Part shown: piece after piece, positions 14,641-44,715 of the stretch
How the letters are laid out: each line of letters opens with the position of its first letter
Numbering within the stretch: the stretch's first letter is position 1
Assembly: GCA_009829735.1 (NCBI GenBank)
Contig: CM020618.1
Span: 21,251,346-21,315,345, forward strand
DNA: 64,000 bases
Direction: 5' to 3'
Origin: Pyropia yezoensis
Taxonomy: Eukaryota; Rhodophyta; Bangiophyceae; Bangiales; Bangiaceae
The notes under the pieces: generated by a model
The model's input: only the letters and a program-made list of their open reading frames with translations
Database searches by the model: none
Told to the model about the DNA's origin: nothing
Position numbers and translations under genes: made by a program

Positions 14641-14649
14641 GCACCAGAG

Positions 14650-15790: not shown

Positions 15791-15791
15791 C

Positions 15792-17245: not shown

Positions 17246-17252
17246 ACCCGTC

Positions 17253-19611: not shown

Positions 19612-20182
19612 TGTAGCATCCCTGGCCCCGACTTGGCGCCGACCCGGGACTACAACCAGAGGGCACCAGGTGCCAGAACACGCCCGCCGTGTGGTGATGG
19701 TTGGCGGCCGTGGCCCGTGCCCGGCACTGGGATGCGGTGGACTACGCTATCCACACGTGAGAGAGGGATTGCTGATGGGTTTTTGCATACTTGTGAGGGA
19801 CTTGATTTGAGAGAATTTGAGTGTGAGATTAGTGAGTGGGAATAGAATTAGTAGTGATAGTGGCCCCCGACCTGACGAGGTTAGACTCGGGTCGGGGCCA
19901 CTCGGGGTTATGGGGGGGCTACCTGGCCAACGTGCCGAGGCTCCCCCAGATGCACGTTAAGAGGGACAGCGAGGCGCCCTTGGCCCGCGCCCTCAGGAAA
20001 AAGACAACTGCGCGTTTGCTTTCCTCTTCCCCGTGTGCACTACCGTGCGTATCTGTTTGCTCTGCGAGCAGGCACGTGAGGCAACAGGCATACCATTCTC
20101 GTAGTTCCCCTTTCTGTGTTACCTGTCCCTTTCCCCCGAGGGATATTGACACGTGTCTGAGAGGATCGAGTTTTATACCACA
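19612..20182 (+). repeat. 5' LTR of element 1a
   Basis: Begins TGTAGCATCC and ends ATACCACA (TG...CA). It contains a CACGTG box near 19752 and an imperfect 12-bp hairpin (GTGGCCCC...GGGGCCAC) at 19860-19901 that is present in all four family 1 LTRs. It would supply the promoter and the R/U5 region. Confidence 0.95.
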
Positions 20183-20204: not shown

Positions 20205-20395
20205 TTGATTGGAGTGTTTGAGAAGAGACATTTGGGAGCAGCGGTTGGGTTGTTCCTGTTCTGTCTTTTTCTGTGGTTTGGGAATTATTTGCACCCGTTC
20301 ACGGGAATCCCATTCTTGGCTCTCCAACCCCTCTCTTGTGGTCTGGCGATCATTGGACACGCAGGCAACTGGACTGTGGCTGTCAAGAGACCAAC

Positions 20396-22156
20396 ATGGC
20401 TACCCTCCCTGGCACGACGGTGCCCGAAGGGGTAGACCCCGCGTCCCTTGACGCATCCCTGGTCACCGCGGGGGACGGTGCCCAACCCGGCGTTCTCCCT
20501 ACGGGTGAAGCAGACCTGGGTGTGACATCCGGTAGCGGACTGGAGTCCACAGGCGGCCAAGTACCACCTGCTCCCGTTCCTCCGGCTGTTCCTCCTGTGG
20601 GAGCCACCCCGGGGTCAACGGCGTTTGAGTCCGCTCGCAGCAGACGTCTCCCTCCTGTCGGTTCTACTCCTCAACCTCCAGGGATAGCCCCTGGTGTGCT
20701 TACTCCTGGACCCACACATGGCAGCTGGGTGTATACACCTCTTCCTGTGGGCACTAGCGATGCCAGAGGCACCGTTGTGACTGGTTCTACGGGTCTCCCT
20801 GAGACCTTGACTCCTGGGACCGGCCAAGCTTTTCCTCCCCTTGCATCCTATGGGGCGGGGAGCTCCAAGACCGGTAACCGGAGCAGCCGAAGGCGTCGGC
20901 GTCATCGCCGTCGCTCTAGCACCAGCGAGACCAGTTCCTCCAGCTCTGAGGAGGGATATGATTGGGATGCATCTCCCGGTCCCACCCGGCGCAGGATAGT
21001 CGAGTTTGACTTCCCTGCCCACCAAGTGGGAGATGCCACCCTGAACAAGGTCACGTATTGGGGTAACTACCGGCTGGAGAACCAAGACCAAGGTTACACC
21101 CGGAAGATGGCCAAGAAGATGGCGTCCCTGAACCGGCGAATGCAGCCGAGCTTCGGGGGACATCCTAAGTTTTCCGGGAAGAGACCGGCGCTTATCTTTG
21201 CCTTCCTGCGCCGGTTTGTCAAGGCATGCAACGACAACGATGTGTCCGAGGGCAAGGCTCTCTACCTCCTAGTTAACTTCGTGACCGGAGAAGCGGAACA
21301 GCGGTTTGCACAGGTTCTACCAGACTCTGCCGGACACATTGTCGGACGTACCGTCGCGAGTTATCCGGAGGCGGTCAACTGGCTCCTGTCCAACTACGCT
21401 GACGCGGACTCTCTGCGTAAAGCAGTCGGCAGGCTGAACCGGGCAACCATGGAAAGACAAGAGACTCCAGAGGCGTTCGCCCGTCGTGTCCGGGAGATGA
21501 GCGATGCTTGTGGCAACGTTTACCCTGAGGACAGGCTCAAGATGATCTTCTCGGAAGGGCTTCCTGAATATCTTCAAGTGGATGCGGAGAACTACAACCA
21601 GGAACATCAAGAACATACCTTCCAGCAGTTGATGGCCTACACCCAGGGCAAGTACCGGCAAGCCAGGGCCCTCCAAGCTCCCATGGTATCAACTCCCAAG
21701 CCGTTGTCGCGAGTTCGACCCGGACCCGACAAGTATAAGGGAGGTGATAGCCCTGTACCAGTACTCGCAGTTGGCGAGGCCTCACCCATGGGGTCAGGGG
21801 ACAAGTGGGGCGGCTTCGTTTCTAAGGAGCAACCTTCCCTAGTCGCCCCCAAGCAGGTCAAGAACCAGCGGTTCCGGTCTTGTTGGCTGTGCCAGAAGGA
21901 GGACCACATGTCTTACCAGTGCCCGACCATTCCCAAGGACCTCCAGGAGAAACTCAAGCGTCAAGGACTGGTGTTTGCAAAGGCGGTCAACTGGGCTGAC
22001 CGGCGGGCACCCTCCAAGATGGACAAGGCACAGGTACATGCAATCCGAGTGGCAACCTTACAGAGCATCACGGAGGCTCTGGTAAGGGAAGCTCCTACGG
22101 ACTTCGACCTGGAGACCGAAACCTCTAAGGACTCCTCGGACCCGGGAAACGAGTAG
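20396..22156 (+). CDS. gag: Gag polyprotein, element 1a (586 aa)
   Basis: The ATG at 20396 (CAACATGGC) is preferred over earlier near-cognate starts because the same start is conserved in copy 1b. Residues 1-200 are Pro/Gly/Thr-rich and end in an Arg/Ser block (SSRRRRRHRRRSS). The capsid-like helical region lies at roughly 220-430 (LIFAFLRRFVKACND ... EGLPEYLQVDAENY). A single CCHC zinc knuckle, C-x2-C-x4-H-x4-C, is at residues 496-509 (CWLCQKEDHMSYQC) and would bind the RNA genome. The frame stops at a TAG that lies 4 nt downstream of a -1 slippery heptamer, so a minority of ribosomes would make Gag-Pol. Gag builds the cytoplasmic virus-like particle. Confidence 0.9.
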   Translation: MATLPGTTVPEGVDPASLDASLVTAGDGAQPGVLPTGEADLGVTSGSGLESTGGQVPPAPVPPAVPPVGATPGSTAFESARSRRLPPVGSTPQPPGIAPGVLTPGPTHGSWVYTPLPVGTSDARGTVVTGSTGLPETLTPGTGQAFPPLASYGAGSSKTGNRSSRRRRRHRRRSSTSETSSSSSEEGYDWDASPGPTRRRIVEFDFPAHQVGDATLNKVTYWGNYRLENQDQGYTRKMAKKMASLNRRMQPSFGGHPKFSGKRPALIFAFLRRFVKACNDNDVSEGKALYLLVNFVTGEAEQRFAQVLPDSAGHIVGRTVASYPEAVNWLLSNYADADSLRKAVGRLNRATMERQETPEAFARRVREMSDACGNVYPEDRLKMIFSEGLPEYLQVDAENYNQEHQEHTFQQLMAYTQGKYRQARALQAPMVSTPKPLSRVRPGPDKYKGGDSPVPVLAVGEASPMGSGDKWGGFVSKEQPSLVAPKQVKNQRFRSCWLCQKEDHMSYQCPTIPKDLQEKLKRQGLVFAKAVNWADRRAPSKMDKAQVHAIRVATLQSITEALVREAPTDFDLETETSKDSSDPGNE

Positions 22157-22184: not shown

Positions 22185-25100
22185 GAATCTCCAACGGCAG
22201 GGTACTTCTACCCGTTCTCCCCTTGCGTACCGGGAGAAAGGACGGCAGTTACCCGCTCAACCGGTAGCCGCCTGGACACCCTGTGTGTTCAAGAGGACAT
22301 TGCTCGTCCTGCGTAAAGAAAACCTCAAGATTAATGCTCGTATGCGTGTGGGGGATAGCCTCCCCCAAGCTGTTACGCCGGTGGTTGACACGGGAGCCGG
22401 ACCAAGCGTCATCACTGAGAACCTGTTACCTCCGGGCTGGCGTCGACATGCCTGGAGAGCGCCTACCCGGACCCATATCGTCGACGCTTCGGGTCAAACC
22501 CTACGACCGCTTGGCCGTCTTCCTGTCGCCATCTATGTCAACAATGAACCAGTGCTTTTTCCCTTTCTAGTAGTCAAGACCCTATCAGTCCCCCTCATCC
22601 TAGGCTGGGACTTCCAGAAGCAGCATGTCAAGAGCATCCTACCCGGAGAAGGGAAGGTCCAGTTCAATCATGGGTTTGTGTCACCGGTATTGGAACATCT
22701 GGACGCCAAGGTTCGTGTAGCCAAGAGCAAGAGGGAACGCATCCCACCCTCTACCTTGACTCTCTTCAAACCGGTGCTCCTACCTCCTCGCTCGGAGACC
22801 AAGGTTCAAGTAACGACCCGGATTGCAGGTCAATGCCTGATCTACGGACGTAAGGAATTTCTGGCGAAACACCGGTTATACTTGGCCCACGGACATCACA
22901 AGAAGGTAGAAAGGCACACCCCGTTCTCGGTGCTAATCGTCAACGTGAGCCGGAAGCCAATAACCCTCGCCAAGGGCACCCGAGTTGGTACAGCAGAGCC
23001 TTACCGGGGATCCGCCCGTGCTATGAGCAAGGAAGACCTCCTGAACCTGCAACAAGAACTGGCATCCAACTTGACGGCCTTAGACGTACCTCCGAAACAA
23101 GAGCAGGCTGGCAGCGCTACTCCGAAACCCGAACAAGCACCACCCGGGATGCCGAAGGTCAAGCAACAAAATGTCCCTCCCGACTTGAAGGAGGCGCTGG
23201 AGAAGCTTCTCCAGGAATATCGGCACCTGTGGTCGGGAGAGCTGGGCAAGATGGACGCCACTCTACACCGGATTCAACTCAAGCCGGAAGCTAAACCAGT
23301 GCACATGCAACCATATCGGGCTGGACCTCATCGCCGGGATGAGATTGAGAAGCAGGTTAACAAGATGCTCAAGATGGATGTTATCGAGCCGTCTGATGGC
23401 GAGTGGGCTTTCCCGGCGGTAGTCGACCCGAAAACCGGCGGTCACTTCCGTTTCTGCGTTGACTACAGGCGCCTGAACGAGATGACAGTCAAGGACGTAT
23501 ACCCGATACCCCGGATGGATGATTGCCTCGACTTTCTTGGTGATGCCACCCTCTTCTCGACGCTGGATTGTAATGCCGGTTACTGGCAGATCCCTCTGGC
23601 TGACGAGGACAAGGACAAGACCACCTTCACGTGCCACCTGGGACTATTCCGGTGCAAGCGTCTTCCTTTTGGTCTCACCAATGCTCCGGCGACCTTCCAG
23701 AGAGCCATCGACATCATCCTGTCCGGGCTAAGGTGGAGAACATGTTTAGTCTACCTGGACGACATTATCGTTTTCTCCAAGACCCCAGCGGAACACCTGG
23801 AGCACCTTCGGGAGGTCCTGGCCCTCCTGTCCAAGGCTGGAGTTACCCTCAAGGCCGAGAAGTGCCACCTGTTTGAGACTGAGGTGGAGTATCTGGGGCA
23901 CGTGCTGAGTCCGGGGGAGCTCCGAGTCAATGAGAAGAAGATCAAGGCCCTCCGGCATGCACGGCAACCCAAAACCCAGACGGAACTCAAGAGCTTCCTG
24001 GGTATGTGCAACGTCTATCGCCGGTTCGTACGGGACTATGCTCTGATTGCCCGGCCACTGACCAAGCTGACCAGCAAGAAGCTTCCCGCACAACTCCCGG
24101 TGTTCGACGAGAAGCAGACCGCGGCCTTCGAAGAGCTCAAGAAGCGCCTGACCACCACTCCAGTACTGGCGTTACCCAAGCGGGAGGGCCAGTTTGTTCT
24201 GGGGACGGATGCCTGTGGCGTCCAGGTGGGGTGCTCACTACTCCAGCAGCAACCTGATGGGCACTTCCTCCAGATAGGCTACTACAGTCGCGTCTTGACT
24301 CCAGCTGAGAAGAACTATTCCACGACCGAGCGCGAGTGCTTGGCAGCCGTCTGGGCTTGCTTCCTGTTACGGCCATATCTTGAAGGACAAGAGTTCCTCA
24401 TCCGGACGGACCACGCCAGCCTAAGGTGGCTGCTATGTATGGACAGCAGTCAAGGAAGGGTCGCCCGGTGGCGCCTACGCCTTTCGGAGTTCAAGTACAA
24501 GGTGTGCACCAGAGCAGGGAGGGTGCACCACTGCGCCGACACCATGTCCCGGCTGGAGACTCCTGCAGCCGACACCGGTCCTATCCCGGAGGAAATACCT
24601 TGTTTCATCCTCCCGAATGTCGGACGTGGCTGGTACGCTCCCCTGTATGAGACACCTGAAGCTCATCAACCGGTGACCATTCACCGGATGCTGGAGGCAC
24701 AACTGACGGACCCTCAATGCTTGGAGCTTCGCCACCAAATGGACCTGAACCGGAACAGTCGTTTCTCCGAGTCTACGGACGGACTCCTAGTACGGGTGTC
24801 ACCCTTCGATGGGGCAACTCAAGTCTACGTACCCCGGGGCCTACGAGCAGACATCCTACGCCTGGAGCACTCGTCTCCCCAGGCCGGACATCCTGGTATC
24901 AATCGGATGTATGCTTCCATGAGACGACACTATTTCTGGGAAACCATGGCCAGTGACGTCCATAAGTACCTGGAGGCTTTTGTTTCGTGTGCAAGGAACC
25001 GGTTGTCCCAGAAGAAGAAGACTTCTAAGCTACGCCTATTCCCTGCGGCGGAGCCCTTTGCAAGCTTAAGCATGGACATCCTGGGGCCCCTACCTGAAAC

Positions 25101-26244
25101 ATCCAGTGGCAACATATACCTGCTCATCATTTGTGACCGGTTCTCCAAGTTCACTCGAGCAATCCCGCTGAGGACCATCACGGCTCTGGATGTCACGTCA
25201 GCCTTCTGCGAGTACTGGATAGCTACCTACGGCCCTCCAGACTCCGTCTTAACCGACAACGGTCCCCAGTTTGCATCCCTGTTCTTCCAAGGAGTCTGTG
25301 ACCTGATGGGCATCAAGAACTTGTACACCACGACGTACCACCCGCAAACGAACGGCCAGGTGGAACGATTCAACAGGACCCTAGTGGACATGCTACGGCA
25401 CTACGTGGAGGAGCACCAAGAAGACTGGGACGAGCTCCTGGCTGTCCTCACTCTAGCCTACAACTCCCGAGTTCACCGGACAACGGGAGTCGCTCCACTC
25501 GACTTTGTCACCCCAAGGCGGCTGACCAACTTCTCCCAGGAAAGAATACCAGACGGTCTCCAGCCTGCACTGAAGTCAGGTCCCAAGGCAAAGGATGAGT
25601 TCCTGGAACAACTGAAGCTCCTGCTCCCAAGAGTCAAGGAGTCAATCTCGAAGACCCAGGAGCGATACAAGCGGGGCTATGACAAGGGCGTTCGGGAAAA
25701 GAACAAGGAACTGGGTGGTGGCGACTGGGTTTTTGTGGACAACCATAGCAAGACCCGGGGGGAGCTGGACTCGAAGACGGATGGACCTTATGAGATCCTG
25801 AATACGGACGGTTGGACCTTTCTTCTAGACGTGGATGGCTCCCCGTACCGCGTGAGCAGCGACCATGTCACCCGAGCTCCACCGCCAAGCCAACGGGACT
25901 TGACCCGGCGCAAGCGGGCTGCAGTACCCTGGCTATCCCAAGAAGAAGGTCGGGAATATGTCTACGTCAAGTTTGTGGACCATGCCTGGAGAGACGGACG
26001 CCTGTACCTGCGAGTACGCTGGTTCGGTTTTAACCCGGCAGATGATACCTGGGAACCCTCAAACCGGCTACCCATCGCGGATGTCTGTGCCTACACGCGA
26101 CGGAACGGGATAGAGGGCACTCCAGTGGCCAGAGCCGGCAAGATTCTGGAGTCGGACTCGGAGGAGGACCAAGAGGATGGGGCCAACCAAGACCCTCGGG
26201 ACGAGCCGAGTTCATCCGCAACGGATGCGGAACAAGAGGATTGA
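22150..26244 (+). CDS. pol: Pol polyprotein, element 1a (about 1364 aa after frameshift)
   Basis: Numbering from the shift point: retroviral-type protease with VVDTGAG (D at about 80); reverse transcriptase with FRFCVDYRRLN, LDCNAGYWQI and catalytic YLDD at 535-538; RNase H with FVLGTDACG, TERECLA and RTDHASL; integrase with an H-H-C-C finger and catalytic D976, D1036, E1072 (D-x59-D-x35-E); and a C-terminal chromodomain-like module at about 1268-1320 (YVYVKFVDHAW...RWFGFNPADDTWEP). No ATG is needed if it is made by frameshift. Oddities: the first integrase zinc Cys is Phe at residue 944 (copy 1b has Cys), and the RT has DPKTGGHF where 1b has VPKPGGHF. This copy is open but possibly weak. Confidence 0.93.
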   Translation, partial: RVGQALSPSVFPNLQRQGTSTRSPLAYREKGRQLPAQPVAAWTPCVFKRTLLVLRKENLKINARMRVGDSLPQAVTPVVDTGAGPSVITENLLPPGWRRHAWRAPTRTHIVDASGQTLRPLGRLPVAIYVNNEPVLFPFLVVKTLSVPLILGWDFQKQHVKSILPGEGKVQFNHGFVSPVLEHLDAKVRVAKSKRERIPPSTLTLFKPVLLPPRSETKVQVTTRIAGQCLIYGRKEFLAKHRLYLAHGHHKKVERHTPFSVLIVNVSRKPITLAKGTRVGTAEPYRGSARAMSKEDLLNLQQELASNLTALDVPPKQEQAGSATPKPEQAPPGMPKVKQQNVPPDLKEALEKLLQEYRHLWSGELGKMDATLHRIQLKPEAKPVHMQPYRAGPHRRDEIEKQVNKMLKMDVIEPSDGEWAFPAVVDPKTGGHFRFCVDYRRLNEMTVKDVYPIPRMDDCLDFLGDATLFSTLDCNAGYWQIPLADEDKDKTTFTCHLGLFRCKRLPFGLTNAPATFQRAIDIILSGLRWRTCLVYLDDIIVFSKTPAEHLEHLREVLALLSKAGVTLKAEKCHLFETEVEYLGHVLSPGELRVNEKKIKALRHARQPKTQTELKSFLGMCNVYRRFVRDYALIARPLTKLTSKKLPAQLPVFDEKQTAAFEELKKRLTTTPVLALPKREGQFVLGTDACGVQVGCSLLQQQPDGHFLQIGYYSRVLTPAEKNYSTTERECLAAVWACFLLRPYLEGQEFLIRTDHASLRWLLCMDSSQGRVARWRLRLSEFKYKVCTRAGRVHHCADTMSRLETPAADTGPIPEEIPCFILPNVGRGWYAPLYETPEAHQPVTIHRMLEAQLTDPQCLELRHQMDLNRNSRFSESTDGLLVRVSPFDGATQVYVPRGLRADILRLEHSSPQAGHPGINRMYASMRRHYFWETMASDVHKYLEAFVSCARNRLSQKKKTSKLRLFPAAEPFASLSMDILGPLPETSSGNIYLLIICDRFSKFTRAIPLRTITALDVTSAFCEYWIATYGPPDSVLTDNGPQFASLFFQGVCDLMGIKNLYTTTYHPQTNGQVERFNRTLVDMLRHYVEEHQEDWDELLAVLTLAYNSRVHRTTGVAPLDFVTPRRLTNFSQERIPDGLQPALKSGPKAKDEFLEQLKLLLPRVKESISKTQERYKRGYDKGVREKNKELGGGDWVFVDNHSKTRGELDSKTDGPYEILNTDGWTFLLDVDGSPYRVSSDHVTRAPPPSQRDLTRRKRAAVPWLSQEEGREYVYVKFVDHAWRDGRLYLRVRWFGFNPADDTWEPSNRLPIADVCAYTRRNGIEGTPVARAGKILESDSEEDQEDGANQDPRDEPSSSATDAEQED

Positions 26245-26389
26245 GAAGAAGGGAACGGGTATATCAAGGAGAACACGCAATACAAGCATGGAACAATCAA
26301 GGAAAACAAGCACCCGCTCGGGCAACCCTTCTCTCCGCCTCTTCCCTCCTCGCTTCTCCCAAGACCCTCACCCTCCTTGCCTCCAACTA
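26245..26389. other. Convergent gap between pol and antisense ORF (1a)
   Basis: Only about 145 bp separate the pol stop (TGA at 26242-26244) from the end of the antisense frame. It probably holds 3'-end signals for both transcripts. I see no clear hairpin comparable to the one in family 2. Confidence 0.4.
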
Positions 26390-28507
26390 CTACTCCCGGC
26401 GCGGACGCTGAGCCGCGGGAGTGTCCTCCAGCGCTGCCTCCGCGGCACGACGGGAACCGGAGGAAGACGGGATGACGTAGTGCGGTGGACGCGGTGCATC
26501 CCGGTATGACGCCATCGGAGTAGTACCGGTAGTTGCCGGGGGCTCCCGCTCATCCAGATATGCCCGTCGGCGCCCCTGGAAGCCAGTGAAGGTTTCTGAC
26601 CACTGCTGGGCCAAGCCATGCCGCGTCAAGGTCGCCAGAAGTTCGCCAACCACCGGGCTGTTCGACATCTGGCCGCTGTCCGCGCAAGCAAACACCCGGT
26701 CAACCACGTTGTTCAAGACGCTGGCGTATGTGCCCAGCACCAGGGAAGACCCGACGCCCTGAACCTGCACCGGAAGACGACCCAGCTGGTCTTCAATCAT
26801 ACCGACGTCGTACTGGTCGCATGTCGGGCCACCTTAGTTCAGGTACCAGTCAGGCACCCGGAAGCGGGTAAGGCGCAGAGTCGGCGCCGGAATCTCGAAC
26901 CGCCCCGAGGATGACACCACCGGACGGTCCACAACGGCCCCCGAAACCGGAGTACCCAATTCCAGCGGAGGCACAGCGCCGCCGGCGTTGGAAGAAGGCG
27001 TCCGAGGCGGAGCGGCCGGAGTGGTAGGCGATTGCACGGTCACCCCCAGACTCGCCGCAGACAGGCGCGGTGCCGGAGGAGCTTGAAGTACCGGCACAGC
27101 CGGAACAGGGCGTGAACGCGCCGGCGACGGTTCAGGCGAGGCCACCGGGGCGACAGGTGCAACAGGAGGAAGCGGAGCCGCCGCAGACGCCTGACCGACC
27201 GCCGCGGCCCATCCCGACTCCTGCACCGGCGGCCCAACTGGTAGAAGATCAAGGGCGGCCGGGGCAGGAAAGCTACCTAGCTGCGGCCACGCCGGAAGCG
27301 GCGTCGCCAGCTGCACCTTGGCCGGAGAAGACTGGTAGACCACCTGCGCCCAACCGAAGCCATCCCGACGCGGGCGGTTCTGGTCGGCAATCGCGTTCAA
27401 GAAGTTCCGGTCATGCACCGGCACCAGACGCCGGAAGTCAATCATCGCCTGGAAGAGCCCCTTGTACTCTTCGTCCTGGCTGCACAGGAAGTCGACGGTC
27501 AACTTGTCGACAATCCAGACCATCAGGAGGTCAGGGAGAAACCAAAGCCGGTTGGACACCAAGACCTCGTGAAGCCAGTGGTTGGCCGCCAAGACTGTCA
27601 TCTCGGACGTGTACATCATGTACGGGATCGAGTGGAAGAAGCCCTTGATCGACGCCTGAGTCAAGGCGTCCAAGAAGTACCAGGTGAAGGGGATGCTGAA
27701 AGGAGCAAACCCGACCGGGATCTCGACTTCCTGCTGCTGCGGGATGACCTTGGGGTAGTACGCCGCCCGGTTAGCCTTATCCAGCTTCCAGAACTCCTGA
27801 TGGTTGCAGCTCACGGGGAAGTCACGCTGACGGCCGCGTCGCTCGCCTTGCTCCCGTGCCGGTGACAACTTGGAGTACTTCCGGGTCAAGAAAGGCGGCT
27901 CCAGAGCGACCATGCTCGGACGGGGGTCGCAGTTCAAGCTCCCCGACCCCTTGAGCGCCTCGTCTCGGACCTTGAGCGCCCGGTGGACGTACCCTTCCTC
28001 CTCCGGCCACCTGAGAACGGACGCGGACACGCGACGCTCGGTCAAGGGCAGATCCAGCACCAGCGCGAAGGGGAGATCCTCCAGACGAGCAACCCAAGAG
28101 GAACCCGAGAAGCTCTGGGAGCGGTCTAGTGCCAGGCGCATCTGGTCCGCCGTGTGAAGACGAGCCTTATCCATCTCCGTCAAGACCCCGCGCTGGAGTT
28201 CCTTGCGCCAGAGGTCCAAGCAATCCTGCTGGCACTGGGCCGCGCCGGCGTTGCCGACCACCGTGGAGTAACGCCGGGCCGCCAGAGGGTCCTGCCCAAG
28301 AAGCATCTCCGGGAGACCCACCGGGGGGGTCTCGACCGGGTGCATCTCAGAAGCCGGGGGAACCCGATCCGTCCCCGCCGTGGCGACCGGCGCCGACATC
28401 GACACCCGAGGAACCGGAGGCAGGAGAGGGGCGCGACTACCCGAGTTCTCCTCCGCAACACTCACCGCCGGAACCACGGGCCCAGCTTGGATCTCGGAAC
28501 TGGACAT
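26390..28507 (-). pseudogene. Antisense ORF of element 1a (about 705 codons, one nonsense codon)
   Basis: Read on the strand opposite to gag-pol, between pol and the 3' LTR. ATG at 28507 (MSSSEIQAG), 185 bp from the LTR. Residues 1-90 are Pro/Ser-rich. The central part (about 130-400) is conserved with copies 1b and 1c: LDLPLTERRVSASVLRW, PSMVALEPPFLTRKYS, SCNHQEFWKLDKANRAAYYPK, VEIPVGFAPFSIPFTWYFLD, AANHWLHEVL and VHDRNFLNAIADQNRPRRDG. A Pro/Ala-rich linker follows, then a conserved C-terminal block (QLGRLPVQVQGVGSSLVLGTY). A TAA at 26834-26836 replaces the CAA seen in 1b. No known domain is recognised. It parallels the antisense ORF of family 2. The function is unknown. Confidence 0.85.
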
Positions 28508-28691: not shown

Positions 28692-29262
28692 TGTAGCATC
28701 CCTGGCCCCGACTTGGCGCCGACCCGGGACTACGTCCAGAGGGCACCAGGTGCCAGAACACGCCCGCCGTGTGGTGATGGTTGGCGGCCGTGGCCCGTGC
28801 CCGGCACTGGGATGCGGTGGACTACGCTATCCACACGTGAGAGAGGGATTGCTGATGGGTTTTTGCATACTTGTGAGGGACTTGATTTGAGAGAATTTGA
28901 GTGTGAGATTAGTGAGTGGGAATAGAATTAGTAGTGATAGTGGCCCCCGACCTGACGAGGTTAGACTCGGGTCGGGGCCACTCGGGGTTATGGGGGGGCT
29001 ACCTGGCCAACGTGCCGAGGCTCCCCCAGATGCACGTGAAGAGGGACAGCGAGGCGCCCTTGGCCCGCGCCCTCAGGAAAAAGACAACTGCGCGTTTGCT
29101 TTCCTCTTCCCCGTGTGCACTACCGTGCGTATCTGTTTGCTCTGCGAGCAGGCACGTGAGGCAACAGGCATACCATTCTCGTAGTTCCCCTTTCTGTGTT
29201 ACCTGTCCCTTTCCCCCGAGGGATATTGACACGTGTCTGAGAGGATCGAGTTTTATACCACA
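28692..29262 (+). repeat. 3' LTR of element 1a
   Basis: Same 571 bp as the 5' LTR, with ACGTC in place of ACAAC near the start and GTGAAG in place of GTTAAG as the differences I noticed. It is followed by the target duplication GTAGG. Confidence 0.95.
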
Positions 29263-32152: not shown

Positions 32153-32723
32153 TGTAGCATCCCTGGGCCCGACTTGGCGCCGACCCGGGACTACAACCAG
32201 AGGGCACCAGGTGCCAGAACACGCCCGCCGTTTGGTGATGGTTGGCGGCCGTGGCCCGTGCCCGGCACTGGGACGCGGTGGACTACGCTATCCACACGTG
32301 AGAGAGGGATTTCTGATGGGTTTTTGCATACTTGTGAGGGACTTGATTTGAGAGAATTTGAGTGTGAGATTAGTGAGTGGGAATAGAGTTAGTAGTGATA
32401 GTGGCCCCCGACCTGACGAGGTTAGACTCGGGTCGGGGCCACTCGGGGGTATGGGGGGGCTACCTGGCCAACGTGCCGAGGCTCCCCCAGATGCACGTTA
32501 AGAGGGACAGCGAGGCGCCCTTGGCCCGCGCCCTCAGGAAGAAGACAACCGCGCGTTTGCTTTCCTCTTCCCCGTGTGCACTACCGTGCGTATCTGTTTG
32601 CTCTGCGAGCAGGCGCGTGAGGCAACAGGCATACCATTCTCGTAGTTCCCCTTTCTGTGTTACCTGTCCCTTTCCCCCGAGGGACATGGACACGTGTCTG
32701 AGAGGATCGAGTTTTATACCACG
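32153..32723 (+). repeat. 5' LTR of element 1b
   Basis: TGTAGCATCC start; terminal CA changed to CG. It is followed after two bases (TA) by the same primer-binding site as 1a. Confidence 0.93.
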
Positions 32724-32931
32724 TATTTGGTGGAGCAGCAGGGGATTGGCGCGTTTAAGGAGAGACATTTGGGAGCAGCGGTTGGGTTGTTCCTGTTCTG
32801 TTTTTTCTGTGGTTTGGGAATTATTTGCACCCGTTCACGGGAATCCCATTCCTGGCTCTCCAACCCCTCTCTTGTGGTCTGGCGATCATTGGACACGCAG
32901 GCAACTGGACTGTGGCTGTCAAGAGACCAAC

Positions 32932-34692
32932 ATGGCTACCCTCCCTGGCACGACGGTGCCCGAAGGGGTAGGCCCCGAGTCCCTTGATGCATCCCTGGTC
33001 ACCGCGGGGGACGGTGCCCAACCCGGCGTTCTCCCTACGGGTGAAGCAGACCTGGGCGTGACGTCCGGTAGCGGACTGGAGTCTACAGGCGGCCAAGTAC
33101 CTCTTGCTCCCGTTCCTCAGGCTGTTCCTCCTGTGGGAGCCACCCCGGGGTCAACGGCGTTTGAGTCCGCTCGCAGCAGACGTCTCCCTCCTGTCGGTTC
33201 TACTCCTCAACCTCCAGGGATAGCCCCTGGTGTGCTTACTCCTGGACCCACACATGGCTGCAGGGTGTATACACCTCTTCCTGTGGGCACTAGCAGTGCC
33301 AGAGGCACCGCTGCAACTGGTTCTACGGGTCACCCTGAGACCTCGACTCATGGGACCGGCCAAGCTTTTCCTCCCCTTGCATTCTATGGGGCGGGGAGCT
33401 CCAAGGCCGGTAACCGGAGCAGCCGAAGGCGTCGGCGTCATCGCCGTCGCTCTAGCACCAGCGAGACCAGTTCCTCCAGCTCTGAGGAGGGATATGATTG
33501 GGATGCATCTCCCGGTCCCACCCGGCGCAGGATAGTCGAGTTTGACTTCCCTGCCCACCAAGTGGGAGATGCCACCCTGAACAAGGTCACGTATTGGGGT
33601 AACTACCGGCTGGAGAACCAAGACCAAGGTTACACCCGGAAGATGGCCAAGAAGATGGCGTCCCTGAACCGGCGAATGCAGCCGAGCTTCGGGGGACATC
33701 CTAAGTTTTCCGGGAAGAAACGGGCGCTTATCTTTGCCTTCCTGCGCCGGTTTGTCAAGGCATGCAACGACAACGATGTGTCCGAGGGCAAGGCCCTCTA
33801 CCTCCTGGTTAACTTCATGACCGGAGAAGCGGAACAGCGGCTCGCACAGGTTCTACCAGACTCTGCCGGACACATTGTCGGGCGTACCGTTGGGAGATAT
33901 CCGGAAGGGGTCAACTTGCTCCTGTACAACTACGCTGACGCGGACGCCCTGCGCAAGGCAGTAGGCAGGTTGAACCGGGCAACTATGGAACGACAAGAGA
34001 CTCCAGAGGCCTTCGCCCGCCGTGTCCGGGAGATGAGCGAGGCTTGTGGCAACGTCTACCCTGAGGACAGGCTCAAGATGATCTTCTCGGAAGGGCTTCC
34101 TGAATATCTTCAAGTGGACGCGGAGAACTACAACCAGGAACATCAAGAACATACCTTCCAGAAGTTGATGGCTTACACCCAGGGCAAGTACCGGCAAGCC
34201 AAGGCCCTCTAAGTTCCCATGGTATCAACTCGCAAGCCGTTGTCGCGAGTTCGTCCCGGACCCGACAAGTATAACGGAGTTGATAGCCTTGTACCGGTAC
34301 TCGCAGTTGGCGAGGCCTCACCCGTGGGGTCAGGGGACAAGTGGGGCGGCTTCGTTTCTAAGGAGCAACCTTCCCTAGTCGCCCCCAAGCAGGTCAAGAA
34401 CCAGCGGTTCCGGTCTTGTTGGCTGTGCCAGAAGGAGGACCACATGTCCTACCAGTGCCCGACCATTCCCAAGGACCTCCAGGAGAAGCTCAAGCGTCAA
34501 GGACTGGTGTTTGCCAAGGCAGTCAACTGGGCTGACCGGCGAGCACCCTCCAAGATGGACAGGGCACAGGTACACGCAATCCGGGTGGCAACCTTGCAGA
34601 GCATCACGGAGGCTCTGGCAAGGGAAGCTCCTACGGACTTTGACCTGGAGACCGAAACCTCCAAGGAATCCTCGGACCCGCGAAACGAGTAG
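32932..34692 (+). pseudogene. gag: Gag of element 1b, with one nonsense codon
   Basis: Same start and frame as the 1a gag, about 95% alike. The CAA codon after 'KAL' is TAA at 34210-34212, cutting off the CCHC knuckle (CWLCQKEDHMSYQC, about 34415-34456). The frame otherwise runs through to a TAG at 34690-34692. Confidence 0.9.
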
Positions 34693-34720
34693 GGCAGGCA
34701 CTCTCCGCAAGTGTCTTCCC
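34680..34720 (+). promoter_or_regulatory. Degenerate -1 frameshift site (1b)
   Basis: The heptamer is GCGAAAC (34680-34686) instead of GGGAAAC, which should prevent efficient slippage. The stem is intact: AGGCACT (34696-34702) pairs with AGTGTCT (34710-34716) around a 7-nt loop. Relative to 1a, one stem pair has changed on both sides (G-C to A-T). Confidence 0.7.
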
Positions 34721-37700
34721 GAATCTCCGACTGCAGGGTTCATCTACCCGTTCTCCCCTTGCGTGCCGGGAGAAAGGACGGCGGTTACCTGCTCAACTGG
34801 TAGCCGCCTGGACACCCTGTTTGTTCAAGGGGACATTGCTCGTCCTGCGTAAAGAAAACCTCAAGATTAATGCTCGTATGCGTGTGGGGGATAGCCTCCC
34901 CCAAGCTGTTACGCCGGTGGTTGACACGGGAGCCGAACCAAGCGTCAGCACTGAGAACCTGTTACCTCCGGGCTGGCGTCGACATGCCTGGAGAGCGCCT
35001 ACCAGGACCCATATTGTCGACGCTTCGGGTCAATCCCTACGACCGTTTGGCCGTCTTCCTGTCGCCATCTATGTCAACAATGAACCAATGCTTTTTCCAT
35101 TTCTAGTGGTCAAGACTCTATCAGTCTCCCTCAACCTAGGCTGGGACTTCCAGAAGCAGCATGTCAAGAGTATCCGGCCCGGAGAAGGAAAGGTGCAGCT
35201 CAACCATGGGTTTGTGTCACCGGTGCTGGAGCATCTGGACGCCAAGGTTCGTGTAGTCAAGAACAAGAAGGAACGCATCCCACCCTCTACCTTGACTCTC
35301 TTCAAACCGGTGCTCCTACTTCCTCGCTCGGAGACCAAGGTTCAAGTAACCACCCAGACTGCAGGTCAATGCCTGATCTACGGATGGAAGGAATTTCTGG
35401 CGAAACACCGGTTATACTTGGCCCACGGGCATCATAAGAAGGTGGAAAGGCACACCCCATTCTCGGTGCTAATCGTAAACGTGAGCCGGAAGCCGATAAC
35501 CCTCGCCAAGGGCACTCGAGTTGGAACAGCAGAGCCTTACCGGGGGTCTGCCCGTGCTATGAGCAAGGAAGACCTCTTGAACCTGCAACAAGAACTGGCA
35601 TCCAACTTGACGGCTTTGAACGTACCTCCGAAACAAGAGCAGGCTAGCAGCGTCACCCCGAAGCCCGATCAAGCACCATCCGGGATGCCGAAGGTCAACC
35701 AGGAGAACGTCCCTCCCGACTTGAAGGCGGCACTGGAGAAGCTTCTCCAGGAATGTCGGCACCTGTGCTCGGGAGAGCTGGGCAAGATGGACGCCACTCT
35801 ACACCGGATTCAACTCAAGCCAGGTGCCAAGCCAGTGCACCTGCAACCATACCGGGCTGGACCTCATCGCCGGGATGAGATTGAGAAGCAGGTTAACAAG
35901 ATGCTCAAGATGGATGTTATCGAGCCGTCTGATGGTGAGTGGGCCTTCCCGGTGGTAGTCGTCCCAAAACCTGGCGGTCACTTCCGTTTCTGCGTTGACT
36001 ACAGGCGCCTGAACGAAATGACAGTCAAGGACGTATATCCGGTACCCCGGATGAATGATTGCATCGACTTTCTTGGTGATGCCACCCTCTTCTCAACGCT
36101 GGATTGTAATGCCGGTTACTGGCAGATCCCTCTGGCTGACGAGGACAAGGACAAGACCACCTTCACGTGCCACCTGGGACTATTCCGGTGCATGCGTCTT
36201 CCTTTTGGTCTCACCTATGCCCCGGCGACCTTCCAGAGAGCCATCGACATCATCCTGACGGGGCTGAGGTGGAGAACATGTTTGGTCTACCTGGACGATA
36301 TTATCGTTTTCTCCAAGACCCCGGCGGAACACCTGGAGCACCTTCGAGAGGTCCTGGCTCTCCTGTCCAAGGCTGGAGTTACCCTGAAGGCTGAGACATG
36401 CCACCTGTTTGAGACTGAGGTGGAGTACCTGGGGCACGTGCTGAGTCCGGGGGAGCTCCGAGTCAACGAGAAAAACATCAAGGCCCTCCGGCATGCACGG
36501 CAACCTAAGACCCAGACAGAACTCAAGAGCTTTCTGGGTATGTGCAACGTCTACCGCCGGCTCGTACGGGACTATGCCCTAATTGCCCGGCTCTTGACCA
36601 AGCTCACCAACAAAAAGCTCCCCGCACAACTCCCGGTGTTCGACGAGAAGCTGGCTGCTGCCTTCGAAGAGCCCAAGAAGCGCCTGACCACCATTCCTGT
36701 ACTGGCGTTACCCAAGCGGGAGGGCCAGTTTGTCCTGGAGACTGATGCCTGTGGCGTCCAGGTGGGGTGCTCACTACTCCAGCAGCAACCTGATGGGCAC
36801 TTCCTCCAGATAGGCTACTACAGTCGCGTCCTGACTCCAGCTGAGAAGAACTATTCCACGACCGAGCGCGAGTGCTTGGCAGCCGTCTGGGCTTGCTTCC
36901 TGTTACGGCCATATCTTGAAGGACAAGAGTTCCTCATCCGGACGGACCACGCCAGGTTAAGGTGGCTGCTATGCATGGACAGCAGCCAAGGAAGGGTCGC
37001 CCGGTGGCGCCTACGCCTTTCGGAGTTCAAGTACAAGGTGTGCACCAGAGCAGGGAGGGTGCACCACTGCGCCGACACCATGTCCCGTCTGGAGACTCCT
37101 GCAGCCGACACCGGTCCTATCCCGGAGGAAATACCTTGTTTCATCCTCCCGAATGTCGGACGTGGCTGGCACGCTCCCCTGTATGAGACACCTGAAGCTC
37201 ATCCACCGGAAACCATACACTCGATGCTGGAAGCACAACTGACGGACCCTCAATGCTTGGAGCTTCGCCACCAAATGGACCTGAACCGGAGTAGTCGCGT
37301 CTCCGAGTCTACAGATGGACTCTTGGTACGGGTGCCACCCTTCGATGGGGCAACTCAAGTCTACGTACCCCGGAGTCATCGAGCTGACATTCTACGCCTG
37401 GAGCACTCGTCTCTTCAGGCCGGACATCCTGGCATCAACCGGATGTATGCTTCGATGCGACGACACTATTACTGGGAAACCATGGCTAGTGACGTCCATA
37501 AGCACCTGGAGGCTTGTGTCTCTTGTGCAAGGAACCGGTTGTCCCAGAAGAAGAAGACTTCTAAGCTACGCCTATTCCCTGCGGCGGAGCCCTTTGCAAG
37601 CTTAAGCATGGACATCCTGGGGCCCCTACCTGAAACATCCAGTGGCAACATATACCTGCTCATCATTTGTGACCGGTTCTCCAAGTTCACTCGAGCAATC

Positions 37701-38780
37701 CCGCTGAGGACCATCACGGCCCTGGATGTCACGTCAGCCTTCTGCGAGTACTGGATAGCTACCTACGGCCCTCCAGACTCCGTCTTAACCGACAACGGTC
37801 CCCAGTTTGCATCCCTGTTCTTCCAAGGAGTCTGTGACCTGATGGGTATCAAGAACTTGTTCACCACGACATACCACCCGCAAACGAACGGCCAGGTGGA
37901 ACGATTCAACCGGACCCTGGTGGGCATGCTACGGAACTACGTGGAGGAGCACCAAGAAGACTGGGACGAGCTCCTGGCTGTCCTCACTCTAGCCTACAAC
38001 TCCCGAGTTCGCCGGACAACGGGAGTCGCTCCACTCGACTTTGTCACCCCAAGGCGGCTGACCAACGTCTTCCTGGAAAGAATACCAGACGGTCTCCAGC
38101 CTGCACTGAAGTCAGGTCCCAAGGCAAAGGGTGAGTTCCTGGAACAACTGAAGCTCCTGCTCCCAAGAGTCAACGAGTCAATCTCGAAGACCCAGGAGCG
38201 ATACAAGCGGGACTATGACAAGGGAGTCCGGGAAAAGAACAAGGACCTGGGTGGTGGCGACTGGGTTTTCGTGGAGAACCAAAGCAAGACCCGGAGGAAG
38301 CTGGACTCGAAGACGGATGGACCTTATAAGATCCTGAATACGGACGGCTGGACCTTTCTTCTGGACGTGGATGGCTCCCCGTACCGGGTAAGCAGTGACC
38401 ATGTCACCCGAGCTCCACCGCCAAGCCAACGGGACTTGACCCGGCGCAAGCGGGCCGCAGTACCCTGGTTATCCCAAGAGGAAGGCCGAGAGTATGTCTA
38501 CGTCAAGTTTGCCGACCACGCCTGGTGGGACGGGCGCTTGTACCTGCGAGTACGCTGGTTCGGTTTCAATCCGGCGGATGATGCCTGGCAACACTCAAGC
38601 CGGTTATTCATTGCGGACGTCTGCGCCTACACGCGACGGAACGAAATTGAGGGCACTCCGGTGGCCAAAGCCGGCAAGATCCTGGAATCGAACTCGGAGG
38701 ATGACCATGAGAAAGGGGCTGATCACGACCCGCGGAACGAGCCGAGCTCACCTGCGACAGACGCGGAACAAGAGGATTGA
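34686..38780 (+). CDS. pol: Pol polyprotein, element 1b
   Basis: Open through protease (VVDTGAE, where the residue after DTG-A is Glu rather than Gly), RT (FRFCVDYRRLN, YLDD), RNase H (FVLETDACG), integrase (intact H-H-C-C with ACVSCARNR; catalytic D, D, E present) and a degraded chromodomain (ADDAWQHSSRL where 1a has ADDTWEPSNRL). The slippery site upstream is mutated, so expression as Gag-Pol is unlikely. A comparison of 1a and 1b suggests each copy carries different lesions. Confidence 0.9.
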   Translation, partial: RVGQALSASVFPNLRLQGSSTRSPLACREKGRRLPAQLVAAWTPCLFKGTLLVLRKENLKINARMRVGDSLPQAVTPVVDTGAEPSVSTENLLPPGWRRHAWRAPTRTHIVDASGQSLRPFGRLPVAIYVNNEPMLFPFLVVKTLSVSLNLGWDFQKQHVKSIRPGEGKVQLNHGFVSPVLEHLDAKVRVVKNKKERIPPSTLTLFKPVLLLPRSETKVQVTTQTAGQCLIYGWKEFLAKHRLYLAHGHHKKVERHTPFSVLIVNVSRKPITLAKGTRVGTAEPYRGSARAMSKEDLLNLQQELASNLTALNVPPKQEQASSVTPKPDQAPSGMPKVNQENVPPDLKAALEKLLQECRHLCSGELGKMDATLHRIQLKPGAKPVHLQPYRAGPHRRDEIEKQVNKMLKMDVIEPSDGEWAFPVVVVPKPGGHFRFCVDYRRLNEMTVKDVYPVPRMNDCIDFLGDATLFSTLDCNAGYWQIPLADEDKDKTTFTCHLGLFRCMRLPFGLTYAPATFQRAIDIILTGLRWRTCLVYLDDIIVFSKTPAEHLEHLREVLALLSKAGVTLKAETCHLFETEVEYLGHVLSPGELRVNEKNIKALRHARQPKTQTELKSFLGMCNVYRRLVRDYALIARLLTKLTNKKLPAQLPVFDEKLAAAFEEPKKRLTTIPVLALPKREGQFVLETDACGVQVGCSLLQQQPDGHFLQIGYYSRVLTPAEKNYSTTERECLAAVWACFLLRPYLEGQEFLIRTDHARLRWLLCMDSSQGRVARWRLRLSEFKYKVCTRAGRVHHCADTMSRLETPAADTGPIPEEIPCFILPNVGRGWHAPLYETPEAHPPETIHSMLEAQLTDPQCLELRHQMDLNRSSRVSESTDGLLVRVPPFDGATQVYVPRSHRADILRLEHSSLQAGHPGINRMYASMRRHYYWETMASDVHKHLEACVSCARNRLSQKKKTSKLRLFPAAEPFASLSMDILGPLPETSSGNIYLLIICDRFSKFTRAIPLRTITALDVTSAFCEYWIATYGPPDSVLTDNGPQFASLFFQGVCDLMGIKNLFTTTYHPQTNGQVERFNRTLVGMLRNYVEEHQEDWDELLAVLTLAYNSRVRRTTGVAPLDFVTPRRLTNVFLERIPDGLQPALKSGPKAKGEFLEQLKLLLPRVNESISKTQERYKRDYDKGVREKNKDLGGGDWVFVENQSKTRRKLDSKTDGPYKILNTDGWTFLLDVDGSPYRVSSDHVTRAPPPSQRDLTRRKRAAVPWLSQEEGREYVYVKFADHAWWDGRLYLRVRWFGFNPADDAWQHSSRLFIADVCAYTRRNEIEGTPVAKAGKILESNSEDDHEKGADHDPRNEPSSPATDAEQED

Positions 38781-38924
38781 GAAGAACGGACCAGGTGTAT
38801 CAAGGAAAACACGAAATGCAAGCAAGGACTATCAAGAAAGACAAGCACCCGCTCGAGCAGCCCTTCTCTCCGCCTCTCCCCTCCTCACTTCTCCCTAGAC
38901 TCCCATCCTCCCTGCATCCAAGAA

Positions 38925-41042
38925 TTACTCGCGGCGCGGACGCTGCGCCGCAGGAGGGTCTTCCAGCGCCGCTTCGGCGGCACGAAGGGACCCGGAGGAA
39001 AGCGGGATGACGTAGTGCGGTGGACGAGGCGCTTTCAGGTAGGACGCCACCGAAGCAGTACCAGTAGTTGCCTGGCGCTCCCTCCTATCCAGATATACCT
39101 GTCGGCGCCCCTGGAAGCCAGTGAAGGTCTCTGACCACTGCTGGGCCAAGCCATGCCGCGTCAAAATCGCCAGAAGCTCACCAACCACCGGGCTGTCCGA
39201 CATCTGGCCGCTGTCCGCGCAAGCAAACACCCGGTCGACCACATCGTTCAAGACGCTGGCATATGTGCCCAGCACCAAGGAAGACCCGACGCCTTCGACC
39301 TGCACCGGAAGACGACCGAGCTGGTCGTCAATCATGCCAACGTCATACTGGTCGCACGTCGGGCCACCTTGGTTCAGGTACCAGTCAGGCACCCGGAAGC
39401 GGGTAAGGCGCAGAGTCGGCGCCGGGATCTCGAACCGCCCCGAGTATGCCACTACCGGACGGTCCACAATACCCCCCGAAACCGGAGTCCCCGACTCAAG
39501 AGGAGGCACAGGGCCGCCGACAATTTAAGAAGGCGCCTGAGGAGGAACGGCTGGAGTAGTCGGCGACCGGACGGCCACGCCAAGACTCGCTGCAGACAAG
39601 CGCGGTGCCGGAGGAGCTTGAAGTACCGGCACAGCCTGAGCAGGACGCGGAGGCACCGGCGACGGTTCAGGCGAGGCCACCGGGGCAATAGGTGCAACAG
39701 AAGGGAGCGGAGCCGCCGCAGACGCCCGACCGACCGCCGCGGCCCATGCCGACTCTTGTACCGGCGGCCCAGTTGGCAGGAGATCGAGGGTGACCGGAGC
39801 AGGAAAGCCGCCTAGCTGCGGCCACGCCGGAAGCGGCGTCGCCAGCTGCACCTTGGCCGGAGAAGACTAGTAGACCACCTGCACCCAACCTGAGCCATCC
39901 CGACGCGGGCGGTTCTGGTCGGCAATCGCGTTCAAGAAGCTCCGGTCATGCACCGGCAGCCGATGCCGGAAGTCAATCATCGCCTGGAAGAGCTCCTTGC
40001 ACTCCTCGTCCTGGCTGCACAGGAAGTCGACGGTCAACTTGTCGACGATCCGGACCATCAGGAGGTCGAACAGAAGCCAAAGCCGGTTGGACACCAAGAT
40101 CTCATGAAGCCAGTGGTTGGCCGTCAAGACCATCATCTCGAAGATGTACATCATGTACGGGATGGAGTGGAAGAAGCCCTTGATCGACGCCTGGGTCAAG
40201 GCGCCCAGCAAGTACCAGGTGAAGGGGATGCTGAAAGGAGCAAACCCGACCGGGATCTCGACTTCCTGCTGCTGCGGGACGACCTTGGGGTAGTACGCCG
40301 CTTGGTTAGCCTTATCCAGCTTTCTGACCTCTTGATGGTTGCAGCTCACGAGGAAGTCACGCTGGCGCCCGCGCCGCTCGCCTTGTTCCCGTGCCGGCGA
40401 CAACACGGAGTACTTCCGGGTCAAGAAAGGCGGCTCCAGAGCTACCATGCTCGGACGGGGATCACAGTTCAGGCTCCCCGACCCCTTGAGCGCCTCGTCC
40501 CAGACCTTGAGCGCCCGATGGACGTACCCTTCCTCCTCAGGCCACCGGAGAACGGACGCAGACACGCGACGCTCGGTCATGGGTAGATCCAGCACCAGCG
40601 CGAAGGGGAGATCCTCCTGGCGAGCAACCCAAGAGGAACCCGAAAAGCTCTGGGAGCGGTCTTGTGCCAGGCGCATCTGGTCCGCCGCATGGAGACGAGT
40701 CTTGTCCATCTCCGTCAAGACTCCGCGCTGGAGTTCCTTGCACCAGATGGCCAGGCAATCCTGCTGGCACTGGGCCGCGCTGGCGTTGCCGACCACCGTG
40801 GAGTAGCGCCGGCCCGCCAGAGGATCCTGCCCAAGAAGCATCTCCGGGAGACCCGCCGGGGAAGTCTCGACCGAGTGCGACGCAGAAGCCGAGGAAACTC
40901 GATCCGCCTCCGCCGTGGCGACCGACGCCGGCACCGACACCCGAGGAACCGGAGGTAGGAGAAGGGCACGGCCGCCCGAGCTTTCTTCTGCAACATTCGC
41001 CGCCGGAACCACGGGCCCAGCTTGGATCTCGGAACTGGACAT
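38925..41042 (-). pseudogene. Antisense ORF of element 1b, two nonsense codons
   Basis: Colinear with the 1a antisense frame: ATG at 41042, conserved central block at about 39900-40700, and C-terminal block at 38925-39509, all in one frame. TAG at 39867 replaces a CAG of 1a, and TAA at 39525 lies in the Pro-rich linker. The codon that is nonsense in 1a (26834) is CAA here, so the two copies were inactivated independently. Confidence 0.85.
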
Positions 41043-41225
41043 GACGTCCAGAATCCGGGGGAGCGGGAGGGTCAAGGTGAAGGAGGAGGGGGGGGGCAGG
41101 ATTGGAGCAGGTGATCGTGCTCGGGGTGAAGACGCTCGACCTCGGCACCGGTATGGACGTGCTCGAGGCTGTGCACGGTGGCACCTGGTTCGGCCCGAGG
41201 ACGTGCCGGGCTAGGGAGGGAGCTA

Positions 41226-41795
41226 TATAGCATCCCTGGCCCCGACTTGGCGCCGACCCGGGACTGCAACCAGAGGGCACCAGGTGCCAGAACACGCCCA
41301 CCGTGTGGTGATGGTTGGCGGCCGTGGCCCGTGCCCGGCACTGGGACGCGGTGGACTACGCTATCCACACGTGAGAGAGGGACTTCTGATGGGTTTTTGC
41401 ATACTTGTGAGGGACTTGATTTGAGAGAATTTGAGTGTGAGATTAGTGAGTGGGAATAGAGTTAGTAGTGATAGTGGCCCCCGACCTGACGAGGTTAGAC
41501 TCGGGTCGGGGCCACTCGGGAGTATGGGGGGGGCTACCTGGCCAATCTGCCGAGGCTCCCCCAGATGCACGTGAAGAGGGACAGCGAGGCGCCCTTGGCC
41601 CGCGCCCTCAGGAAGAAGAAACTGCGCGTTTGCTTTCCTCTTCCCCGTGTGCACTACCGTGCGTATCTGTTTGCTTTGCGAGCAGGCACGTGGGGCAACA
41701 GGCATACCACTCTCGTAGTTCCCCTTTCTGTGTTACCTGTCCCTTCCCCCGAGGGATATTGACACGTGTCTCAGAGGATCGAGTTTCATACCACA
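41226..41795 (+). repeat. 3' LTR of element 1b
   Basis: 570 bp, start mutated to TATAGCATCC, end CATACCACA, followed by CTGGC. Confidence 0.93.
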
Positions 41796-41836: not shown

Positions 41837-42305
41837 TGTGGCAAACACCACATGCACACACGGCACCCAAGTTGGGGCGGTGTGCAAGGGCTGCCTCCCG
41901 TGTCGGGGGAACCGGAAGAAGTGCAAGTCGCACACACTCTGTCCCTGTTGTGGGGCAAACCCCCCACGGACAAACAAGAGGATGGTGTGTGGTCGAACAG
42001 TTTCTTGCTCGGGACGGGGACGCAGGGCCAAGCCCCGCTGTCCCTCCCCTTATCCCCCCAGGGTCCACTCAGAATCTCGCCACTCGGAATCTCCCACCCC
42101 AGCACCTGCCCACCGGGCCACACGAAAATTCAAGACGATAAATGCAGAAAACCCTCAAATCCAAGTTGGATTTACTACTAAGCTAACTATCCCAAACTTA
42201 GGGAAAATGGACCCAAATGCAGGGGGAGGAACGGATCAGGCTAGTGGCCTGCCGCCCCTTGCATGGCACGTGTTGCCCCCCTACCTGGGGGTCAATACTG
42301 CCATA
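41837..42305 (-). repeat. 3' LTR of element 2A
   Basis: Plus-strand reading starts TGTGGCAAAC and ends ACTGCCATA (the last CA changed to TA). It contains an 8-bp-arm hairpin AAATCCAA-G-TTGGATTT at 42157-42173. Confidence 0.93.
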
Positions 42306-42641: not shown

Positions 42642-42643
42642 CC

Positions 42644-44690: not shown

Positions 44691-44715
44691 GCCCTCCCTC
44701 ACGTTGAGGGAGGGC
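44691..44715. terminator. 11-bp hairpin at the convergent ends of antisense ORF and pol (2A)
   Basis: GCCCTCCCTCA - CGT - TGAGGGAGGGC, perfect. It overlaps the pol stop (minus) and lies about 100 bp after the antisense stop (plus). It is a candidate 3'-end or strand-separating signal; the function is inferred from position only. The 2B copy has one G-T wobble. Confidence 0.55.

Follow-up and report, generated by a model that had tools for sequence, protein, structure and literature searches.

The stretch of DNA considered here, hereafter the window, spans 64,000 nucleotides of the genome of the red alga Pyropia yezoensis (contig CM020618.1, positions 21,251,346 to 21,315,345 of the forward strand) and contains several Ty3/gypsy retrotransposons in which a long antisense open reading frame (aORF) lies on the strand opposite to pol, between pol and the 3' long terminal repeat (LTR). 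The elements are designated by family, i.e., F1, F2, F4, F5 and F6, the missing number being taken by a further element of the window (element 3), and by copy, i.e., 1a, 1b and 1c for F1, 2A and 2B for F2 (Table 1). F1 belongs to Ty3/gypsy as judged from LTRs with TG...CA ends, a primer-binding site, and reverse transcriptase (RT), RNase H and integrase in the gypsy order. An earlier note, made from the letters of the window, had placed an antisense frame at 26390-28507 of the minus strand, between pol and 3' LTR of an F1 element, without any pol opposite, and both statements hold, the longest sense ORF within the interval having 192 residues. The F2 frame was also correctly taken for antisense: the primer-binding site TTTGGTGGAGCAGCA, identical to that of F1, adjoins the right-hand LTR of 2A on the minus strand, from which the F2 integrase and chromodomain are also read, and the plus-strand frame is thus antisense, between pol and 3' LTR. 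This primer-binding site is common to the two families (20183-20215; 46370-46384). The length of 650-700 codons given in that note stands as the trace of a gene, but none of the copies 1a, 1b and 1c is wholly open and 2B is broken by a frameshift, 2A being open. Intact F1 relatives are found outside the window, namely the protein P0001 and many genomic matches. A relic of an F4 aORF, absent from the earlier list, is also present in the window.

The antisense frame is a real protein-coding gene, under purifying selection in three families, namely F1, F2 and F4. All ratios of nonsynonymous to synonymous substitution (dN/dS) given here are pairwise, according to Nei-Gojobori, and computed by script. 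In F1, the aORF has a dN/dS of 0.325 (1a/1b), 0.322 (1a/1c) and 0.312 (1b/1c), close to that of gag (0.34 for 1a/1b) and above that of pol (0.20 and 0.17). Changes between 1a and 1c are distributed as 131/101/230 over the three codon positions of the aORF frame, and the other five frames of the same stretch give dN/dS of 0.43-1.77 with 12-29 stops in aligned codons, compared with 6 for the aORF; the lowest ratio (0.43) belongs to a sense frame, the third positions of which coincide with those of the aORF. Values are lower in F2 (0.21 for 2A/2B and 0.11-0.24 for three further pairs), where neutral simulation of five pairs gives each a stop-free probability of 0.04-0.11; none of them has a stop, and third-position changes number 57-73 vs about 25-33 expected. 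In F4, dN/dS is 0.14-0.21 among intact lineages, save one very close pair; intact vs old broken copies give 0.20-0.38, and comparisons of old broken copies with each other 0.49-0.64. For the F4 pair L017/L021, with changes of 55/40/181 by codon position, no run out of 5000 neutral simulations with 276 changes remained free of stops, the mean being 8, and no stop is observed.

Copies without a stop also predominate in the genome, i.e., 140 of 144 scored matches in F1 (266 codons searched), 74/76 in F2 (576 codons searched) and 121/122 in F6 (about 275 residues searched). For F4, searched with a query of 208 residues, the count is 48 of 72 rows, and 24/30 among the best rows, bearing in mind that many of the 72 rows are fragments, two belong to F5 and one is a false hit; a match of the F4 search at E 0.05 (L073) was dropped as a copia integrase. 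The scored F1 and F2 matches are the best-scoring ones, hence lower bounds for copy number, and many of the scored copies are young, so that the claim of selection rests on dN/dS and not on intactness. The full 647 residues are encoded in 27 of the 30 F2 loci that were fetched.

Table 1. Retrotransposon features of the window (positions counted from its first letter)
Feature	Position	Strand	Remarks
aORF of element 1a	26390..28507	-	ATG 28507; 705 codons; one in-frame stop at 26834-26836
pol of element 1a	22285..26244	+	1319 codons; protease (weak), RT, RNase H, integrase, weak chromodomain (Pfam)
Gap between pol stop and aORF stop, element 1a	26245..26389	.	145 bp; convergent, tail to tail
gag ORF of element 1a	20273..22156	+	zinc-knuckle match weak
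5' LTR of element 1a	19612..20182	+	571 bp, 99.5% identical to 3' LTR; followed by primer-binding site
3' LTR of element 1a	28692..29262	+	aORF ATG (28507) lies 184 bp away, on the inner side of the LTR
aORF of element 1b	38925..41042	-	two in-frame stops
pol of element 1b	34821..38780	+	
Element 1b with LTRs	32153..41795	+	LTRs about 32153-32722 and 41228-41795; order of parts as in 1a
aORF relic of element 1c	about 56290..58283	+	minus-oriented element; 76% identical to 1a; frameshift and several stops
pol relic of element 1c	58420..59368	-	interrupted by element 2B
aORF of element 2A	42644..44587	+	open; 647 codons from ATG (704 from a TTG); element minus-oriented
pol remnant of 2A	44699..45694	-	region before/at RT start joined in frame to integrase C-terminus and chromodomain; internal deletion
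3' LTR of element 2A	41837..42303	-	
5' LTR of element 2A	46385..46851	-	primer-binding site adjoins on minus strand
aORF of element 2B	60180..62107	+	single frameshift near 61103
pol of element 2B	62219..63751	-	integrase/chromodomain side, in two frames; continues past the window
3' LTR of element 2B	59373..59842	-	inserted in element 1c
F4 aORF relic, first part	47359..48439	+	two in-frame stops; split by element 3
F4 aORF relic, second part	55460..56121	+	beyond element 3; one in-frame stop

Distribution and homology in five families

The earlier note knew the gene from two families; its reach is wider, covering five families of the genome and at least one other species, where homologues occur. 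The search with the F4 core gave the 72 genomic rows mentioned above, of which some encode a complete protein of about 620-630 residues, and through a weak match (E 0.003) led to F5 (L070), the core of which in turn found F6 as 122 matches at 37-40% identity. The pol lies antisense at the side of the aORF end in all five families, i.e., in F1, F2, F4 (L069, with RT, RNase H, integrase and chromodomain, 40 bp from the aORF end), F5 (L071, beside the aORF) and F6 (L074, the one copy read, where the integrase is separated from the aORF by about 0.9 kb of unread pol end). The placement between pol and LTR is covered on both sides in F1 and F2 and on the pol side in F4, F5 and F6. Among the 30 fetched F2 loci, an LTR adjoins the aORF start in 29 and the pol C-terminus adjoins the aORF end in all. 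The two genes are convergent, with a spacing of 40-145 bp in the three families measured.

The assignment to gypsy relies on LTRs, primer site and integrase side for F2, on the Pfam matches of pol for F4, and on reading of pol together with BLASTP to F1 for F5 and F6. A chromodomain is recognised above the cut-off in F4 (E 2.6e-9) and below it in F1 (E 7.5e-4) and F2 (E 3.5e-4), and was not seen for F5 and F6 within the stretches read. Chromodomain gypsy elements outside the chromovirus clade are described in Ectocarpus (PMC12477816), while a 2012 survey reports no retrotransposon chromodomains for Porphyra yezoensis, its table giving none for expressed sequence tags and NA for genome data (PMC3350952).

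The order of motifs that the earlier note had perceived in F1 and F2 reflects a similarity measurable by both BLASTP (E 1e-6 between P0001 and the aORF protein of 2A) and profile-profile alignment with HHalign (E 7e-4), where none of 40 and none of 50 column shuffles scored as high; the match between families which that note wished to see checked is therefore significant. These shuffles preserve local composition. The strongest HHalign match is between F2 and F5/F6 (E 1.6e-7), and the others, namely F4 with F5/F6 (1e-3), F2 with F4 (1.7e-3) and F1 with F5/F6 (0.047), each exceed 50 of 50 shuffles, as does F1 with F2. By these sequence comparisons, the aORFs of the five families form one superfamily. 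Integrases are 39-61% identical among the five families and 23-36% identical to that of element 3; between F5 and F6, identity is 35% for the aORF and 61% for the integrase. Since the same position is occupied in five families with integrases this divergent, the aORF is most simply seen as ancestral to this group of elements and not as a recent capture.

By sequence, the aORF protein has no counterpart among the models of Pfam and NCBIfam or the chains of the PDB, the best PDB matches having E 0.34 and 1.5. The weak Pfam matches to RHINO (E 0.05) and Phage_attach (E 0.07) concern two of 26 members, are scattered and below cut-offs, and were discarded. With two homologous families, purifying selection and no match in these collections, the accessory protein family proposed in the earlier note as not previously recognised is upheld. 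The protein has low-complexity arms, as judged from composition, around a conserved middle, where an alignment of ten sequences (A3) has invariant R, G, E, P and W residues and the wider alignments A2 and A4 have none; no catalytic-looking pattern was apparent by eye. Basic stretches occur near the C-terminus in F2 and F4, with a shorter one in F1, the inspection having covered the families other than F6. In a set of 5.8 billion proteins, whole F1 and F2 queries retrieved one protein of the same type each, perhaps because proline-/alanine-rich words fill the candidate list, and the core alignment of four families (A3) retrieved 23. The two named homologues among these (P0006 and P0015) are both annotated as hypothetical proteins of Pyropia vietnamensis, a red alga of the Bangiales, e.g., hypothetical protein MMPV_005735, of 619 residues, in a cluster of 74 sequences. 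Some Pyropia hypothetical proteins, including this cluster, are thus probably element genes. No relative of the F1 aORF, the F1 pol or A3 was found in viral contigs. Matches of the low-complexity F1 arms in host DNA of the window (E 1e-2 to 6e-6, no composition correction) were excluded as homology.

Internally deleted copies and tandem arrays

Copy 2A lacks RT, RNase H and most of the integrase. Among the 30 fetched F2 loci, the alignment continues through its deletion junction in five (L045, L047, L048, L049 and L055), 23 continue like the undeleted 2B, and two are undecided. In this deleted form, i.e., 2A and the five loci, the 647-codon aORF is open in 6/6 copies, as is a remnant of 331 codons in which the RT start is fused in frame to the integrase end and chromodomain. 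The deleted form with its single shared junction (41837-46851 in the window, and the five loci) has multiplied, and its pol remnant has a pairwise dN/dS of 0.14-0.37, save one near-identical pair at 0.61. Gag status is readable in 2A, the fetched flanks of the other five copies being too short, and there the 690 bp from primer site to remnant hold no gag-sized frame. In a tree of the aORF, the deleted copies are not one clade and therefore seem to exchange sequence with full elements; given such apparent exchange, the dN/dS of deleted copies does not by itself demonstrate that the deleted form is under selection. Elements of Retand (Tat lineage) that carry the antisense ORF TRP28 similarly include non-autonomous clusters retaining this ORF (PMC11963269).

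Upstream of the aORF ATG, toward the 3' side of the element, a GC-rich tandem array is present in 10 of the 13 F4 loci scanned, with 18-bp units in 8-12 copies (L017-L020) or longer and less regular units (L021, L022, L023, L025, L027 and L030), and is missing at that place in L010, L012 and L015. The loci of F2 (three), F5 (two) and F6 (one) that were scanned show no such array ahead of the aORF ATG. In Retand elements with TRP28, tandem arrays are likewise often found in that region (PMC11963269). Some F4 copies (e.g., L021 and L025) exhibit a frame of 941 codons open through the array.

Putative role and rival explanations

The antisense gene of human T-cell leukemia virus (HTLV) is HBZ, which encodes a bZIP protein, whereas the red-algal aORF has no bZIP or other Pfam match; the two genes have in common an antisense position close to the 3' LTR and a regulatory function, which is putative in the alga. 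An antisense promoter is described for HTLV (PMC7264820). In LTR elements, antisense ORFs downstream of pol were known before; the earlier note mentioned those of the plant Tat lineage, an account to be completed with PvRetro13 and, outside plants, the fungal Boty (PMC7264820). Compared by description, gene23 of Grande, RIRE2, PvRetro13 and brtn of Boty occupy the same place as the red-algal gene, gene23 yielding a nuclear protein from its own promoter; a regulatory role has been proposed for the plant antisense ORFs, and an SMC domain is reported for PvRetro13 (PMC7264820), whereas the red-algal aORF has no Pfam domain. TRP28, for which DNA binding is predicted, is described as restricted to flowering plants (PMC11963269). 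Retand elements differ from those considered here by their flowering-plant hosts, by the absence of the chromodomain that F1, F2 and F4 carry, and by the antisense protein itself: an assignment of the aORF protein to TRP28 was rejected, PF04195 (Transposase_28) matching none of 26 red-algal members and giving no genome match at E up to 10. No earlier report of this red-algal antisense gene was found in the literature searched, subscription papers lying outside the search. What appears to be new is the occupation of the antisense slot by a protein superfamily unrelated to TRP28, and its occurrence both in red algae and in elements with a chromodomain.

As a protein-coding accessory gene of bangialean red-algal Ty3/gypsy elements, the aORF is tentatively proposed, with slightly less than even confidence, to encode a nuclear regulator expressed from an antisense promoter by the 3' LTR. 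A gene of its own on the opposite strand, starting at the 3' LTR side and running toward pol, suggests a distinct antisense mRNA, the promoter of which would be located within or beside the 3' LTR. In the protein, disordered arms would flank a folded central domain of about 150-300 residues. The protein would be brought into the nucleus by its basic stretches and would bind DNA, RNA or chromatin of the element, so as to adjust sense transcription or some nuclear stage of replication. By analogy with the nuclear product of Grande gene23, the DNA binding predicted for TRP28 and the antisense genes of HTLV, such a nuclear accessory regulator would be the most likely role. In a broader version, which is rather doubtful, the superfamily would have held the antisense slot since the ancestor of the bangialean gypsy radiation, independently of TRP28, tandem arrays having been acquired there in both cases and the gene being retained by deletion derivatives. 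An antisense nuclear regulator would then be a recurrent, convergent solution of gypsy elements; it would act in cis at least in part, and the array ahead of its start in F4 would be a candidate binding site.

Several results weigh against a nuclear regulator common to the five families. In terms of homology, the direct profile match between F1 and F4 is not significant (6/40 and 13/50 shuffles as high), these families being connected only through F2 and F5/F6; without F6, F5 has no significant match to F1 (20/40 shuffles as high) and a marginal one to F2 (1/40). In terms of the protein, no DNA-, RNA- or chromatin-binding domain is found in Pfam, the best weak match having E 0.05, the disorder of the arms is deduced from composition alone, and the basic stretches are uneven, with none in F5 and none near the C-terminus of P0005. 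In terms of selection, dN/dS, which the earlier note had suggested as a check, is not near 1 in general, but constraint is absent in two recent pairs of families other than the two then known, i.e., L018/L019 of F4 (0.69, dS 0.045) and L070/L072 of F5 (0.88, dS 0.034).

Alternatively, though this is unlikely, the antisense protein could be a cytoplasmic particle or trafficking factor working with Gag, be it capsid-like, envelope-like or an RNA chaperone. The aORF and gag evolve about equally fast (0.33 vs 0.34), and the aORF is kept in internally deleted elements that need packaging by helpers, both of which would suit such a factor, but no gag or envelope model matches in Pfam and the opposite strand is an odd site for a product required alongside Gag. 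The F1 gag, compared by BLASTP with eight aORF proteins, reached E 2.4 at best, which also leaves an origin from gag unsupported.

A suppressor of host silencing, acting on small RNA or chromatin and supplied by each element for itself, is judged quite improbable. Antisense expression would then be kept despite or because of double-stranded RNA, and the convergent genes would indeed give overlapping RNAs if transcription passes the gaps of 40-145 bp; the faster divergence of the aORF than of the integrase between families, as given above for F5 and F6, is also what a suppressor could show. No known suppressor domain is found in Pfam, however, and selection within families is purifying, not positive.

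Very improbable is a passenger frame, i.e., a captured host gene, a decaying gene of a nested mobile element or an accidental frame over an antisense regulatory RNA: although non-coding antisense transcripts are described in other elements (PMC7264820) and the two recent pairs lack constraint, selection in three families already contradicts a passenger or an accident, and the scarcity of stops among scored F1, F2 and F6 matches and the identical position in five families with such divergent integrases speak against them too.

The papers considered on antisense ORFs of LTR elements deal mainly with flowering plants, TRP28 being the dominant protein type in Retand. An unrelated protein under selection in the same slot, open in hundreds of scored copies, suggests that the slot itself is useful, and the red-algal elements offer a second, independent system for testing why it is kept.

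Other features of the window

Element 3 (48440-55454) is an unrelated, plus-oriented gypsy element of 7 kb with LTRs of 634 bp and a 5-bp target duplication (CTATC), inserted inside the F4 aORF relic. It has a chromodomain of its own, judged by eye; a frame of the aORF type was not found in it by tblastn with F1, F2 and F4 pieces, which returned one match of 51 residues to the low-complexity F1 N-terminus (E 0.005). The window gave no Rfam match at gathering scores and no tRNA match. Without Pfam match over its length, the ORF at 3791-4579 resembles by eye the start of a SET-domain protein. It lies in a host stretch (1-19600) where G+C reaches 71% and tandem repeats are present.
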